64,000 bases of DNA from Aminobacter aganoensis (GTDB lineage Bacteria; Pseudomonadota; Alphaproteobacteria; Rhizobiales; Rhizobiaceae): the NCBI RefSeq assembly GCF_014206975.1, contig NZ_JACHOU010000015.1, forward strand, positions 1 to 64,000, in the 5' to 3' direction. Positions 2,790 to 8,079 of the stretch are shown here, piece after piece; position 1 is the first letter of the stretch; the number at the start of each line of letters is the position of its first letter. The position numbers were made by a program, and so were the translations under genes. The notes under the pieces are model-generated. The model saw nothing but the letters and a program-made list of their open reading frames with translations. It did no database searches and had not been told where the DNA came from.

Positions 2790-3404
2790 CTACCACATGC
2801 TCTTTCGGTAGGATTCGTCGAGCGAGCGGTCGAGTGCCTCGGCATTGTCGGCAAGCGCCAGCTGGTCGTGCAGGATCTGCCCGAGCGTCGGCAGGCTGGT
2901 GCGATCGGGCCAGGTTCCGGGCAGCCACAGCTCGGAACGCATGAACGCCTTGGCGCAGTGCATGTACACCGCCTTGATGGCGACGACCATGACGGTGACC
3001 GGCGGCTTGCCTTCGGCGGCGAGCTGCTCGCGCAGCCCGATGTCGGCGGTGATCCGTGCATCGCCATTGATGCGCAGCGTCTCGTTCATGCCCGGGATCA
3101 GGAACAGCAGGCCCACGGCCGGGTTGGCGACGACGTTTTCCAGCGTGTCGAGCCGGTTGTTGCCCGGCCGGTCGGGAATGGCGATGGTGGCGTCGTCGAG
3201 CACGGCGACAAAGCCCGGCCTGTCGCCCTTGGGCGTGACGTCGGCGTTGCCCTTGCCGTCGGACGAGCCGATCAGCACGAACGGGCTGCGCGCCAGGAAA
3301 CTCGTTGCATGACGGTCGAGAAGGCGGAGTTCCTTCTTCACCGCGCCGTCGCCGGGCGCGCGGTAATGCTGGCGCAGCGCCTCACGGTCGGTGATGAACT
3401 CCAC
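2790..3404 (-). CDS. Pyridoxamine 5'-phosphate oxidase-family flavoprotein (MSMEG_1061-like)
   Basis: A 204-residue split-barrel protein predicted to bind FMN. The segment FVLIGSSDGKGNADVTPKGD near residues 42-61 and the later PGNNRLDTLENVVANP match the PPOX-class flavin family often called MSMEG_1061-like. The substrate is unknown; the fold covers oxidases, heme-degrading enzymes and flavin reductases. Its start lies 10 bases after the ispZ stop, so it is probably the last gene of the dapF-mtaB-ftsY-ispZ operon, with no evident functional link. Confidence 0.8.
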   Translation of the reverse strand: MEFITDREALRQHYRAPGDGAVKKELRLLDRHATSFLARSPFVLIGSSDGKGNADVTPKGDRPGFVAVLDDATIAIPDRPGNNRLDTLENVVANPAVGLLFLIPGMNETLRINGDARITADIGLREQLAAEGKPPVTVMVVAIKAVYMHCAKAFMRSELWLPGTWPDRTSLPTLGQILHDQLALADNAEALDRSLDESYRKSMW

Positions 3405-3414
3405 GGCGGCTCTC

Positions 3415-4068
3415 CTATTTCTGCGAATGCTCTTCCAGCGAATGGCGCATGATCAGCGGCATCTGGCTGAATGTGAACAGAAGCGTGATGGGCATGATGC
3501 CCCACACCTTGAACGCCACCCAGGTGTCGGTCGAGAACGAGCGCCAGACCACCTCGTTGACCACGGCGAGGAACAGGAAGAACAGCCCCCAGCGGAAGGT
3601 CAGCTTGCGCCAGCCTTCGGCGTCGAGCCGGAAGGCGGAGGCAAAGACGTAGCCGAGCAGCGACTTGCCGAACAACAGGCCCCCCAGCAGGATCGCGCCG
3701 AACAGCGTGTTGACGATGGTCGGCTTCATCTTGATGAAAACGTCGTCCTGCAGGTAGAGCGTCAGCGCGCCGAAGACGAAGACGACGACGCCCGACACCA
3801 GCGGCATGATCGGCAGCGAGCGGGTCAACAGCCACGAGGCGATCAGCGCAATCGCGGTTGCCGCCATGAACAGGCCGGTGGCGATGAAGATCGGCCCGCC
3901 GAGCTCGGCCAGCGTCGGAAACTGCGTCGCCAGCCATTCGCCGCGCGCATTGGCGAAGAAGAACACGACCAGCGGCCCCAGTTCCAGCGCCAGCTTCAGC
4001 AGCGGGCTGATCTCTTCCTTCTTGGTTTTCGGGTCCGAAGGATCGCTTTCGAGGATCGGTGCATTCAT
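3415..4068 (-). CDS. ispZ: Septation protein A / inner membrane protein YciB
   Basis: A 217-residue polytopic inner-membrane protein of the YciB/IspZ family, linked to septation and cell-envelope integrity. Family marks are [20 protein letters not shown] near residue 24, [10 protein letters not shown] near the middle, and [20 protein letters not shown] followed by a final hydrophobic segment. Five to six membrane helices are visible. It begins only 3 bases after ftsY ends, an arrangement also common in relatives, so the two are co-transcribed. Confidence 0.92.
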
Positions 4069-4071
4069 GGG

Positions 4072-5889
4072 TCAGGCGACTCCTGCGATCGCCTTGGCGA
4101 AATCGCTTGCCGAGAAGGGTTCGAGGTCGTCGACCTGTTCGCCGACGCCGATGAAATAGACCGGCAGCTTATGTTTGGCGGCGATTGCGACCAAAATACC
4201 GCCGCGCGCCGTACCGTCGAGCTTTGTCATCACCAGGCCGTTGACGCCCGCGATGTTGCGGAAGATTTCGACCTGGCTGAGCGCGTTCTGGCCGGTGGTG
4301 GCGTCGACCGTCTGCAGCACCGTGTGCGGCGCCTCGGGATCGAGCTTGCCGAGCACGCGCACGATCTTCTCGAGTTCGGCCATCAGTTCGGCCTTGTTCT
4401 GCAGGCGTCCGGCGGTGTCGATGATCAGCACGTCGGATCCCGCTTCCCTGGCCTGCTCGAAGGCATCGTAGGCAAGGCCGGCAGCGTCGGCGCCGAGCTT
4501 GGTGGCGATGACGGGCGACTTCGTCCGCTCGCCCCAGATCTTGAGCTGTTCGATGGCAGCGGCACGGAACGTATCGCCGGCGGCGAGCATCACCGACAGC
4601 CCGCCCTCGGTCAGCTTGGCGGCGAGCTTGCCGATGGTGGTGGTCTTGCCGGTGCCGTTGACGCCGACGACCAGGATGACATGCGGCTTGTGCGTGAGGT
4701 CGAGCTCCAGCGGCAGCGCCACCGGCTTCAGCACCTTTTCGACCTCGACCGCCATGATCGAGCGGACTTCATGGTCGGAGACGTCCTTGCCGTAGCGGCT
4801 CGATGCCAGCGCGTCGGTGACGCGAAGTGCCGTCTCGACACCGAGATCGGCACGGATCAGCACGTCTTCCAGATCCTGCAGCGTGTCTTCGTCAAGCTTC
4901 CGCTTGGTGAAGATGCCGGCGATGTTGCCCGACAGCTCCTTCGACGACCGCGACAGGCCCTGGCGCAGGCGTTGGAACCAACTCTGGCGCGGCGCAGGCG
5001 CGGCCACTTCCACGACCTCGGCCTTCTGCTCGACCTTCTTCTGGACCGTCACCTTGCCGGCGGACGTTTTTGGCTCCGCTACAGCGGCCGACGGTTCGAC
5101 AGGAGCCGGCGCAACCTCCTCTCCCCCCTTGAGGGGGAGATGGTCCGAAGGACCAGAGGGGGTCGTCTCCGCCGCGCTCGGCGTCATCTCCACAATGCTC
5201 GGCGTCGCGTCCGACGATTCCGCAACCCCACCCGGCCGCTCTGCGGCCACCCTCCCCTCAAGGGGGAGGGAAATCGCAGGCGCAGCCGTCTCCCCCGCGC
5301 TCGGCAGCTCGGGCGTCGAAGGCGTCGGCTGGGCAGGAACCTCCTCGGGCAGTTCGGGCGTGGATGGCTCCGCCGGCGGCAACGGGACCTCTGCCGGCGC
5401 AGGCTCCGGCTCAACCGGGCTCGGCGCAGGCGCGGGCTGCTCGGCAGGCTTTTCCGGCTCGACGGCGGGAACTTCCGGTTCCGGAGCGGGCTTTGGCTCT
5501 TCCGGCGGCGCCGGCTGCGGCGCGGGTTCGACCGGCACGGGCTGCTCGGCCGGCTTTGGCTCGGGCACCACAGGCGGCGTCGGCGGCGTTTCCGGTGCGG
5601 GTTCGGGCTTCGGCTCCTCAGGCGCGGCGTCCTCTCCCCCCTTGAGGAGGAGATGGTCCGCAGGACCAGAGGGGGTCACCTCCAACTCGGCGACGACCCC
5701 ACCCCGATCGACTTCGTCGATCGACCCTCCCCTCAAGGGGGAGGGAGTCTCGGCCGCCACCTCTTCCGTCGGCTTCAACGCTTCTAGCGCGTCGAAATTC
5801 AGCGGCGGCAGGACCTCGTCCTCGGCCGGCTGCTCGACGGTCTCCTTCTTGCCGAAGGAGAAGACTTTCTTGATGAACCCGAATGCCAT
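4072..5889 (-). CDS. ftsY: Signal recognition particle receptor FtsY, with repeat-bearing N-domain
   Basis: FtsY is the SRP receptor GTPase that delivers ribosome-nascent chain complexes to the inner membrane. The NG GTPase module fills about residues 305-605: P-loop GVNGTGKTT from residue 409, DTFRAAAIEQL, DTAGRLQNK and TKLDGTARGG. The N-terminal 300 residues are an unusually long acidic Pro/Glu/Ala-rich region. Two stretches of it, at about residues 48-87 and 207-258, are translations of palindromic repeat elements (SPLRGG..., TPSGPADHLLLKGGE and TPSGPSDHLPLKGGE). At 605 residues the protein is long for the family. It follows mtaB by 13 bases. Confidence 0.96.
   Translation of the reverse strand: MAFGFIKKVFSFGKKETVEQPAEDEVLPPLNFDALEALKPTEEVAAETPSPLRGGSIDEVDRGGVVAELEVTPSGPADHLLLKGGEDAAPEEPKPEPAPETPPTPPVVPEPKPAEQPVPVEPAPQPAPPEEPKPAPEPEVPAVEPEKPAEQPAPAPSPVEPEPAPAEVPLPPAEPSTPELPEEVPAQPTPSTPELPSAGETAAPAISLPLEGRVAAERPGGVAESSDATPSIVEMTPSAAETTPSGPSDHLPLKGGEEVAPAPVEPSAAVAEPKTSAGKVTVQKKVEQKAEVVEVAAPAPRQSWFQRLRQGLSRSSKELSGNIAGIFTKRKLDEDTLQDLEDVLIRADLGVETALRVTDALASSRYGKDVSDHEVRSIMAVEVEKVLKPVALPLELDLTHKPHVILVVGVNGTGKTTTIGKLAAKLTEGGLSVMLAAGDTFRAAAIEQLKIWGERTKSPVIATKLGADAAGLAYDAFEQAREAGSDVLIIDTAGRLQNKAELMAELEKIVRVLGKLDPEAPHTVLQTVDATTGQNALSQVEIFRNIAGVNGLVMTKLDGTARGGILVAIAAKHKLPVYFIGVGEQVDDLEPFSASDFAKAIAGVA
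5117..5270. repeat. Mosaic palindromic element, copy A, inside ftsY
   Basis: A composite of three hairpins: CTCCCCC/GGGGGAG (5121-5139), TGGTCC-GAA-GGACCA (5141-5155), GGCCGC-TCT-GCGGCC (5234-5248), and a closing CCTCCCC-TCAA-GGGGAGG (5251-5269). The outer CTCCCC..GGGGAG modules are shared with copy B. It is in frame and open for translation in ftsY. It resembles the rhizobial intergenic mosaic elements (RIME class), which normally lie between genes. Confidence 0.85.
5631..5746. repeat. Mosaic palindromic element, copy B, inside ftsY
   Basis: A second, shorter copy with the same order of modules: CTCCCCC followed by GGAGGAG, then TGGTCC-GCA-GGACCA, then CGATCGAC-TTC-GTCGATCG (5705-5723), then the closing CCTCCCCTCAAGGGGGAGG (5727-5746). 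The middle hairpin differs in sequence from copy A while keeping its pairing, as expected of an RNA or DNA structure under selection or of separate insertions. It is also in frame. Confidence 0.85.
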
Positions 5890-5902
5890 GCGGTCGCTTT
5901 CG

Positions 5903-7186
5903 TCAGGCCGCGCGCGCGGCGGCCGGTGCCGCTGTCAGCCGCTCGCCGTCGTGCCCGGCGATGTCGACCTCGATGATTTCGCCCGCCACGCCCCGGTCGA
6001 GGGCAACGAGCGTGAAACCTTCCGTCCGCCCGAGCCCCTCGCGCTCGACAAGCACCTTCTGGTGCGAGTCCTTGAGGCTTTCGAGATGGCGCGTGTAGGC
6101 GACGTCGCCGGCGGCGCGCAGGCGGGCGGCGCGCTGCTTGACGATGTCGCGGCGCACCTGGGGCATGCGCGCGGCGGGCGTGCCCTCGCGCGGGCTGAAC
6201 GGGAAGACGTGGAGATGGGTCAGCCCGCACTCCTCGACGATGCGGATCGAGTTTTCGAACATCTCGTCGGTCTCGGTCGGGAAGCCGGCGATGATGTCGG
6301 CGCCGAAGACGATATCGGGGCGATGCTTGCGCACATCGGTGCAGAACTGGATCGACTGGTCGCGCAGATGCCGTCGCTTCATGCGCTTCAGGATCATGTC
6401 ATCGCCCGACTGCAGCGACAGGTGCAGGTGCGGCATCAGCCGGCTCTCGGTGGCGACGGCTTCGAGCAGGTCTTCGTCGGCCTCAATGGAGTCGATGGAG
6501 GAAAGCCGCAGGCGCTGAACATCCGGCACCTGGCGCAGGATCGTCCGCACCAGCTTGCCCAGACGCGGCGCGCCCGGCAGGTCGGCGCCGTAGCTGGTCA
6601 TGTCGACGCCCGACAGCACCACCTCGGCATAGCCGTTGCCGGCGAGCCGCTTGATCTGCTCGACCACCGCCCCCATCGGCACCGAGCGCGAATTGCCGCG
6701 ACCGTAAGGGATGATGCAGAAGGTGCAGCGGTGGTCGCAGCCGTTCTGCACCTGGACGAAGGCACGCGCCCTGCCCTCGATCGCGTCCACCATGTGGCCC
6801 GCCGTCTCGCGCACGGAAAAGATGTCGTTGACGCGGGCCTTCTCGAAATCGTTGACGCCGAAGTCCGGCAGCGCCCGGTAATTGTGCGCCTTGAGCTTCT
6901 CTTCGTTACCGAGCACGAGGTCGACCTCTGCCATGTCGGCAAAGGCCGCCGGATCGGTCTGCGCCGCACAACCGGTCACGATGATGCGCGCGTCCGGGTT
7001 TTCGCGCCGCGCCTTGCGGATCGACTGCTTGGCCTGGCGCACCGCTTCACTGGTCACCGCGCAGGTGTTGAAGATGACAGCGCCGCCCTTGAGCTCTTCC
7101 AGCCCTGCAGCCTTGGCCTCGCGCCTCATCACCTCGGATTCGTAGGTGTTGAGGCGGCAGCCGAAAGTGACGACATCGACCGCCAT
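5903..7186 (-). CDS. mtaB: tRNA t6A37 methylthiotransferase MtaB
   Basis: A radical-SAM methylthiotransferase that converts t6A37 to ms2t6A37 in tRNAs reading ANN codons. The 427-residue protein begins [17 protein letters not shown], whose FGCRLN is the MtaB form of the N-terminal UPF0004 motif. The radical SAM cluster motif CDHRCTFC gives Cys150, Cys154 and Cys157. A C-terminal TRAM-like segment ends the protein. Its start shares one base with the dapF stop (TGATG), so the genes are coupled. MiaB and RimO are relatives, but their N-terminal motifs differ. Confidence 0.92.
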   Translation of the reverse strand: MAVDVVTFGCRLNTYESEVMRREAKAAGLEELKGGAVIFNTCAVTSEAVRQAKQSIRKARRENPDARIIVTGCAAQTDPAAFADMAEVDLVLGNEEKLKAHNYRALPDFGVNDFEKARVNDIFSVRETAGHMVDAIEGRARAFVQVQNGCDHRCTFCIIPYGRGNSRSVPMGAVVEQIKRLAGNGYAEVVLSGVDMTSYGADLPGAPRLGKLVRTILRQVPDVQRLRLSSIDSIEADEDLLEAVATESRLMPHLHLSLQSGDDMILKRMKRRHLRDQSIQFCTDVRKHRPDIVFGADIIAGFPTETDEMFENSIRIVEECGLTHLHVFPFSPREGTPAARMPQVRRDIVKQRAARLRAAGDVAYTRHLESLKDSHQKVLVEREGLGRTEGFTLVALDRGVAGEIIEVDIAGHDGERLTAAPAAARAA

Positions 7187-8079
7187 CAGGCGACGTCCTG
7201 CCGGTCACGGGTCCAGCCGCCGGTGGCCGGATCGAAGCTGCCGGAGAATTCCCACTCGGCCGGGCCGGTCATGACCACGTGGTCGTCGGCGCGCCAGTCG
7301 ATCTTCAGCGTCCCGCCGCTCGGCACCGTCACCGTGACCGTCCGGCCGGTACGGCCGGTGCGGGCGGCGGAGACGGCGGCCGCACAGGTGGCCGAGCCGC
7401 AGGCCAGCGTCAGGCCGGCGCCGCGCTCCCAGGTGCGCAGGTTGAGCGTTTCGCGCGAAGTCACCTGGGCGATCGAGATGTTGGCGCGCTCGGGAAAGAT
7501 CGGATGGTTTTCCAGCAGCGGCCCGAAGCGGTCGAGGTCGTAGGACCAGACATCGTCATCGACCCAGAAGATGGCGTGCGGGTTGCCCATCGAGGCGACC
7601 GAGGGTGAGTGCAGCACAGGCTGATCGATCGGCCCGATCTGCAGCTCGATCGCGCGGGTATCGCGGAATTCTTCCGCCAGCGGGATGTCCTGCCAGCCGA
7701 AGCGTGGGACGCCCATGTCGACGGAGATGGTGCCGTCCTCGTGCTCCTCGGCATTGAGGATGCCGGCAACCGTCTCGAAGGTGAACACCTTCTGCCCGGT
7801 CTCGGCTGACAGTGCCTGCACCACGCAGCGCGTGCCGTTGCCGCAGGCCTGGGCATGGGTGCCGTCGGAATTGATGATCTCGATGTAATTGACCGTACCC
7901 GGCGTGCGCGGGTCGTGGATCGCCATGATCTGGTCGAACCTGGTCGCCGTATCGGCGGCGAGCGCAATCGCCGCGGCAGGCGTCACGCGGTCGGCGCGGC
8001 CGCGCATATCGGCGACGATGATCTCGTTGCCGAGCCCGTTCATCTTGGCGAAAGGGGCCTCACTGGCCATGGCAGACAT
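7186..8079 (-). CDS. dapF: Diaminopimelate epimerase
   Basis: DapF interconverts LL- and meso-2,6-diaminopimelate in lysine and peptidoglycan synthesis. The two active-site cysteines are visible in the mirrored motifs ACGNGTRC (Cys79) and ACGSATC (Cys227), and the substrate-binding [10 protein letters not shown] is near the start. The 297-residue length is normal, with a short C-terminal tail. A second in-frame Met at 8070 (MASEAPF) is an alternative start. It leads the minus-strand operon dapF-mtaB-ftsY-ispZ. Confidence 0.95.

Follow-up and report, generated by a model that had tools for sequence, protein, structure and literature searches.

The window analysed here is a stretch of 64,000 nucleotides from Aminobacter aganoensis (contig NZ_JACHOU010000015.1, positions 1 to 64,000). 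It carries on its minus strand the gene ftsY, and this gene contains two composite repeats, referred to below as elements A and B (Table 1). A preliminary description, made from the letters alone, had noted two copies with matching hairpin modules that are translated in frame as related peptides. The sequence, the repeats and the frame were confirmed: the ftsY frame is translated through both elements, whose 3′ ends read TPSGPSDHLPLKGGE and TPSGPADHLLLKGGE.

Table 1. Features of ftsY and of the two elements it contains (positions in the window)
Feature	Position	Strand	Evidence or remark
ftsY, SRP receptor, 605 aa	4072..5889	-	hosts both elements; ORF and translation, SRP54 GTPase domain (E 3.3e-70), SRP54_N
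N-terminal segment MAFGFIKKVFSFG, aa 1-13	5851..5889	-	5′ of both inserts; conserved
NG domain	4072..4980	-	downstream of the inserts, frame unchanged; 0 modules across the 82 FtsY counted
Element A, inverted pair of two modules, linker aa ~48-86, translated PSPLRGGSIDEVDRGGVVAELEVTPSGPADHLLLKGGE	5631..5746	-	repeats, folds
Element A left-module hairpin CCCTCCCCCTTGAGGGGAGGG	5725..5745	-	
Element A left-module middle hairpin CGATCGAC..GTCGATCG	5705..5723	-	
Element A right-module middle hairpin TGGTCCGCAGGACCA	5654..5668	+	
Element A right-module hairpin, differing from the search pattern at one position, which breaks one pair	5633..5653	+	
Element B, linker aa ~205-257, translated SLPLEGRVAAERPGGVAESSDATPSIVEMTPSAAETTPSGPSDHLPLKGGE	5118..5271	-	repeats, folds
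Element B left-module hairpin CCCTCCCCCTTGAGGGGAGGG	5250..5270	-	
Element B left-module middle hairpin GGCCGCTCTGCGGCC	5234..5248	+	
Element B right-module middle hairpin TGGTCCGAAGGACCA	5141..5155	+	
Element B right-module hairpin TCTCCCCCCTTGAGGGGGAGA	5120..5140	+	

The FtsY linker (aa 14-303) extends from the N-terminal segment to the NG domain, is rich in proline and acidic residues and evolves fast. The inserts had been placed in a disordered N-domain; they lie in the linker (the Pfam N domain covers aa 319-374). In an AlphaFold model, poor overall (mean pLDDT 55), aa 10-303 have no secondary structure. Residues M1, A2, F5, K7, F10, F12 and G13 of the N-terminal segment are invariant among 30 FtsY proteins compared, and the first 38 ftsY codons of 11 Mesorhizobium are under purifying selection (pN 0.049, pS 0.239). 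The conservation of this segment ahead of both inserts indicates that FtsY translation starts upstream of them, and translation in the cell would pass through the inserts.

Each element consists of two inverted modules, and each module of a C-rich/G-rich hairpin and a middle hairpin. The middle hairpins had been said to differ in sequence while keeping their pairing: this is true of the left modules (GGCCGC..GCGGCC vs the CGATCGAC and GTCGATCG arms), but the right modules of A and B have the same GGTCC/GGACC middle hairpin. Folded as a whole, the two elements have z-scores of -4.4 and -4.7 (0 out of 200 shuffles equally good for either); for single modules the signal over shuffles is weak or absent in three out of four (z of -0.5, -1.6 and +0.1), and the fourth has -2.4. 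The inverted left and right modules pair across the entire element, i.e. they form terminal inverted repeats as in MITEs. Two long antisense ORFs run across ftsY on the plus strand (window 3391-5787, 798 a.a., and 4817-7543, 908 a.a.); they look like spurious ORFs of high-GC DNA.

Copies elsewhere in the genome and in sister species

Two module patterns were searched in the genome to which the window belongs, one with at most two mismatches (37 matches) and the other with at most three (66 matches); the reversed patterns, used as controls, gave no match. The matches group into 63 elements with 102 modules, and 39 out of the 63 elements are inverted pairs, with module starts 45-138 bp apart (median start-to-start spacing of 95). 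According to a codon-usage scan (not annotation), 56 elements are intergenic and seven are within the coding frames of six genes, which encode Pfam-recognised proteins: ftsY (two elements), an ATP-dependent DNA ligase, XdhC, a protein with Pfam domains of what we take to be an ADP-forming acyl-CoA synthetase, an E2 lipoyl acyltransferase and an Lhr-like helicase. The preliminary description had expected such elements mostly between genes and had proposed a genome-wide module search, which returned dispersed copies of both kinds, intergenic and coding. It had also named what would speak against it, namely the same segments in all related FtsY proteins and no similar modules elsewhere; some FtsY proteins of the genus are without the segments, and the modules are dispersed.

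The dispersal is uneven, and this counts against the insertion scenario that we favour below: neither pattern has a match in the first 400 kb of contig C1 of the same genome. Seven hairpins were found in 400 kb of C1 (one module-like, most of the others terminator-like), and twelve in 400 kb of Mesorhizobium AR07. We rejected the idea that the repeat is specially open in all reading frames: 3.42 out of six frames are open, compared with 3.29 under a first-order Markov model (38 of the 39 paired elements, 80-200 bp), so frame openness is no greater than composition predicts and the elements are not built for coding.

In-frame inserts of the same kind were also observed in the HrpB helicase of G007 (L138) and in the hydantoinase B/oxoprolinase of G005 (L193, ~1518-1664). 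An open frame 5′ of the ligase start (L198; G000:C3, ~567300-567640) has element-like peptides QSPPLRGRWPAGQRGVG; this stretch is probably an intergenic copy beside the ligase start codon.

Nine genomes of the genus yielded an FtsY; a tenth, G007, did not and is 81% complete. Element A is present in G000, G002 and G009, and the other six FtsY proteins are without it. Element B is present in five (G000, G002, G005, G008 and G009), its site is empty in G001, G003 and G004, and in G006 half of the element is gone and only the right module remains as a remnant; hairpins have decayed in G002 and G005. The preliminary description had proposed aligning close relatives to see whether the segments are clean indels: presence and absence are seen, with fuzzy boundaries. 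No clear target-site duplication was found in the filled and empty alignments inspected by eye, in which the linker boundaries are fuzzy. At two sites, ftsY site A and the loop of XdhC, older sequence seems to be lost where the insert lies and not merely split; like the lack of a duplication, this counts against the insertion scenario favoured below.

The other host genes have filled and empty sites as well. The ligase insert is present in G000 and G005, and the site is empty with close joins in G001, G003, G004, G006, G008 and G009 (in G002 the ligase gene is split over two contigs, whose matches overlap within the insert). At the helicase site, G000, G002, G005 and G009 have one unbroken match that includes the insert; in G001, G003, G004, G006 and G008 the match breaks in two and the insert is lacking. 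These states were read from match ranges (unbroken being filled), and the sequence itself was inspected in G000, in G005 and, as an empty case, in G003. The synthetase site has the ftsY type of element in five genomes, a T type in G009 and a short linker in G001, G003, G004 and G006. The XdhC loop, resolved in nine genomes (all but G006), has the ftsY type in G000, G002 and G005, the T type in G009, a CTCTCCCCGT type in G007 and G008, and a different, unrelated sequence in G001, G003 and G004 (loci L212-L221). One protein site can thus hold different palindromic types in sister species. Among five genomes aligned for the E2 linker, G000 alone has the element.

The species tree of the genus has weak nodes, and the placement of G002 conflicts between genes. 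In G002 (5% contamination) the helicase is nearest to that of G003, E2 is nearest to that of G001 and FtsY is near none; with such conflicting affinities, recombination or contamination is to be borne in mind.

Hairpin modules in FtsY linkers across Rhizobiales

Among the matches listed (Rhizobiales), modules, detected as perfect stems of at least 7 bp with CCCC and GGGG arms, are present in 42 out of 82 FtsY linkers and absent from the other 40. The named FtsY loci, 80 in all, were the top-ranking of at least 483 confirmed for a single query that itself bears type (iii) elements (see below). The 82 linkers remained from 89 FtsY loci after removal of seven, of which four had a short or truncated linker and three had no recognised NG start; linker starts were set by script, and a few linkers are partial (L046 begins past an upstream stop) or extended (L083). 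Among the matches listed, these linkers hold 98 modules in 63.9 kb vs 1.7 expected from codon shuffles, and the NG-domain DNA of the same 82 genes holds none in 74.9 kb. A chance origin of the modules is excluded by these numbers, together with the 37 and 66 genome matches vs 0 for the controls.

Four types, assigned by eye, cover most of the modules: type (i), ACCCTCCCCTCGATGGGGAGGGT with ACCTCCCCCATCGAGGGGGAGGT, in Mesorhizobium; type (ii), CCTTCTCCCCGTATAGTGACGGGGAGAAGG with CCCTCTCCCCG..CGGGGAGAGGG, mainly in Mesorhizobium; type (iii), the type of the window, also found in Aquamicrobium, Mesorhizobium sp. LHD-90 and L-8-3; and type (iv), ATCTCCCCCCTTGTGGGGGAGAT, in Rhizobium, Ensifer, Sinorhizobium, Neorhizobium and Pararhizobium. 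The modules are found at several positions of the linker, and some linkers have two or more elements. Outside ftsY, its module types were met again when 400 kb were sampled from genomes that carry them (Mesorhizobium AR07 and Ensifer BR816). In three Mesorhizobium ftsY genes (L055, L057 and L058) type (i) directly follows the first half of type (ii), the second half of which is missing; this arrangement is one of nested or swapped elements.

As controls we took three genes for proteins expected to have long disordered parts, IF2, FtsK and RNase E. Modules were found in 0 out of 29 IF2 ORFs (76 kb), 0 out of 30 FtsK ORFs (80 kb) and 1 out of 30 RNase E ORFs (90 kb), in 29 genomes picked for bearing ftsY modules, so that the ftsY rate in the control set is inflated (two RNase E loci are from one genome and two FtsK loci from one genome, and the FtsK loci are 30 of 53 matches). 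Given its recurrence in ftsY and its near-absence in the controls, the module marks the ftsY linker as a recurrent insertion site, more than a permissive low-complexity tract. It also suggests that tolerance by a disordered linker is only part of the explanation, which counts against the insertion scenario favoured below.

Most modules are read in one frame, e.g. TSPIEGEV in 11 out of 11 cases and the HPPLDGEG type in 10 out of 10. A few are read in two frames: PSPLRGG in 7 out of 10 vs the SLPLEGR type in 3, and HLPHKGG in 3 out of 4 vs ISPTRGE in 1. Because modules can be read in different frames, the peptide itself is not the spreading entity. The use of a single frame is in part a matter of shared descent; the peptide could also matter, which would be a point against the favoured scenario. 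In 60 out of 98 modules (12 ties) the frame used is more acidic than any other open frame, and the mean charge is -0.67 in the frames used vs +0.99 in the other open frames; when each combination of module sequence and frame is counted once, the figure is 27 out of 50 (11 ties); these counts are of modules, not of independent insertions, so shared descent is included, and with three frames chance often favours one as the most acidic. The choice of acidic frames is consistent with a filter maintaining an acidic linker, and such a charge filter may explain which frames are used.

The right modules (window 5120-5155 and relatives) have a synonymous divergence about 10-fold below that of the NG domain. 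For Element B in five species of the genus, pS and pN are 0.034 and 0.084 in the right segment (15 codons), 0.259 and 0.066 in the left segment (20 codons), and 0.317 and 0.009 in the NG domain; an alignment read by eye has seven changes over six codons in the right module, one of them synonymous. For type (i) in Mesorhizobium, pS is 0.024 in the right module (12 codons, 8 sequences, i.e. eight of the loci L033-L055, the motif having missed the right module in three out of 11), 0.119 in the left module (11) and 0.30 in the NG domain (11). The substitution counts were summed over pairs and are not independent. The low pS of the right modules could come from constraint at the level of structure, from gene conversion between copies or equally from recent independent insertion; it is not predicted by neutral decay and so counts against the scenario below.

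Origin of the inserts

It is likely that hairpin repeats dispersed in the genomes of rhizobia and related bacteria have repeatedly inserted in frame into the FtsY linker, and sometimes into other enzymes. The starting material would be a dispersed non-coding palindromic repeat, made of inverted two-hairpin modules (~110-155 bp, REP-doublet or MITE-like), which may reach new genomic sites with no transposase of its own and whose intergenic copies would mostly persist. Copies within genes would persist only where they leave the frame open and add their 35-55 residues to a loop or interdomain linker. The FtsY linker tethers the NG domain to the N-terminal helix and is rich in proline and acidic residues; across Rhizobiales it would have been struck repeatedly by families resident in the genome, and the insertions would then be inherited and decay, at times being joined by another element. 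In-frame insertion turns normally intergenic repeat DNA into protein. Transposition or recombination, we infer, brought the copies to their sites, and the inserts are probably near-neutral. The preliminary description had proposed an element that moves or recombines, is tolerant of coding sites and may be shaping the FtsY linker; the empty alleles and the dispersed modules support this as the best reading, with neither a clear target-site duplication nor, in the ten genomes of the genus, a Y1 transposase found.

Recombination could also act with no transposition at all, a homologous or template-switching exchange among dispersed palindromes swapping the element at a given site. We regard this as a tentative possibility, and as a serious partner or rival of insertion, because element types are exchanged at fixed sites: the XdhC loop and the synthetase site hold differing types in sister species. 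The junction of type (i) with half of a type (ii) element in three Mesorhizobium ftsY genes, the conflicting gene affinities of G002 and the low synonymous divergence of the modules are in its favour as well. It leaves the first entry into an empty site unexplained, however, and the flanks differ between elements that occupy a shared site.

Less probable is that the ftsY hairpins are kept for a role in mRNA or DNA, e.g. by retarding linker translation, which would give the membrane helix time to engage ahead of NG-domain folding; we consider this unlikely. Any palindromic family would do for such a role, and this would account for the recurrence of different families in ftsY. The recurrence itself as compared with the three control genes, the strong folding of whole elements, the pS of the right modules far below that of the NG domain and the single synonymous change in the right module of Element B all point in this direction. 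But 40 of the 82 linkers, among the matches listed, have no module, so the hairpins are not generally needed; the left modules are less constrained, in the genus and in Mesorhizobium; the hairpins have decayed in two species, and a third retains only half of Element B; and gene conversion or recent independent insertion would also lower pS, with few independent substitutions to go by. In a broader form, which we find rather improbable, the ftsY linker of Rhizobiales would be kept supplied with hairpins that aid FtsY synthesis or membrane targeting, unrelated families being interchangeable suppliers of a structured tract. A plain low-complexity linker that forms hairpins by accident has practically no chance of being correct: the linker is indeed proline- and acid-rich and fast-evolving, but the codon shuffles and the matching modules found between genes and inside unrelated enzymes refute it.

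Under the insertion of dispersed repeats, which we favour, the range of protein-coding repeat insertion, so far Rickettsia and some scattered intragenic REPs, would widen to free-living and symbiotic Rhizobiales. Naturally occurring alleles of one essential gene form a series, some being empty and others filled, decayed or swapped. This series makes it testable how palindromes spread with no resident transposase, and whether a repeat within a gene is tolerated or used. It is also a warning for annotation, such peptides in rhizobial proteins being repeat-derived.

Comparison with known repeats

Protein-coding palindromes (Rickettsia) and intragenic REPs (many bacteria) are already known. The protein-coding palindromes of Wolbachia, of ~100-150 bp, are found between genes and in frame within unrelated proteins. 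Rhizobium intergenic mosaic elements (RIMEs), like the present elements, are palindromic repeats of rhizobia. Rickettsia palindromic elements (RPEs) are, in the part of PMC2229807 consulted, palindromes of ~100-150 bp that are intergenic and also in frame within unrelated proteins. The repeats described here have the same mode, being palindromic, dispersed, mostly intergenic and also in frame in unrelated proteins. By description they differ from RPEs in their Rhizobiales host, GC-rich modules, inverted pairs and variable middle hairpins, and in comprising several repeat families with one gene as a hotspot.

GTAG/CGTC REPs, as excerpts of PMC3733652 describe them, are short stem-loops, single or in head-to-head or tail-to-tail dimers, mostly intergenic; some are in frame in proteins of several phyla, including a DNA ligase, and intragenic REPs are found at about the same recB site in two Xanthomonas. 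By these excerpts of PMC3733652, the statement in the preliminary description that insertion into proteins is known mainly from Rickettsia does not stand. The elements studied here likewise have stem-loop units, often as inverted dimers (39 of the 63), but tags are within 8 nt of the match in only 2 (GTAG) and 12 (CGTC) out of 102 modules. The main text of PMC3733652 has no mention of Mesorhizobium or FtsY.

The elements are also similar to REPIN/RAYT systems in being inverted palindrome doublets of ~110-155 bp. A RAYT-driven REPIN was ruled out, since the Y1/RAYT transposase domain (PF01797) is absent from all ten genomes of the genus; five out of 14 control genomes are positive for it. According to part of PMC5082802, Br-REP1/2 of Bradyrhizobium are palindromic repeats placed in 3′-UTRs and intergenic regions. 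The present elements are like Br-REPs in being palindromic repeats of rhizobia, and unlike them are also inside coding frames.

In open-licence literature, no in-frame palindromes in FtsY or in Mesorhizobium proteins were found by title and abstract opening (PMC3610622 and PMC2699552, which have both FtsY and palindromic, were left out), nor were these untagged families, the ftsY hotspot or differing element types at one protein site found in that literature.

Rfam has no match above gathering at the elements of the window or of 20 further loci, so a known structured RNA family was rejected. The best match at the window elements is whalefall-1 (18.0 and 15.4 bits vs a gathering threshold of 37): both left modules (window 5695-5747 and 5224-5272, minus strand) align to the whole model, below gathering, and a further element in L146 reaches 22.3 bits, also below gathering. 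The sole above-gathering match in the 20 further loci is a serC leader RNA (L142:2832-2884, minus strand, in G000:C11; 67.4 bits, gathering 35), ~1.3 kb from an intergenic element.
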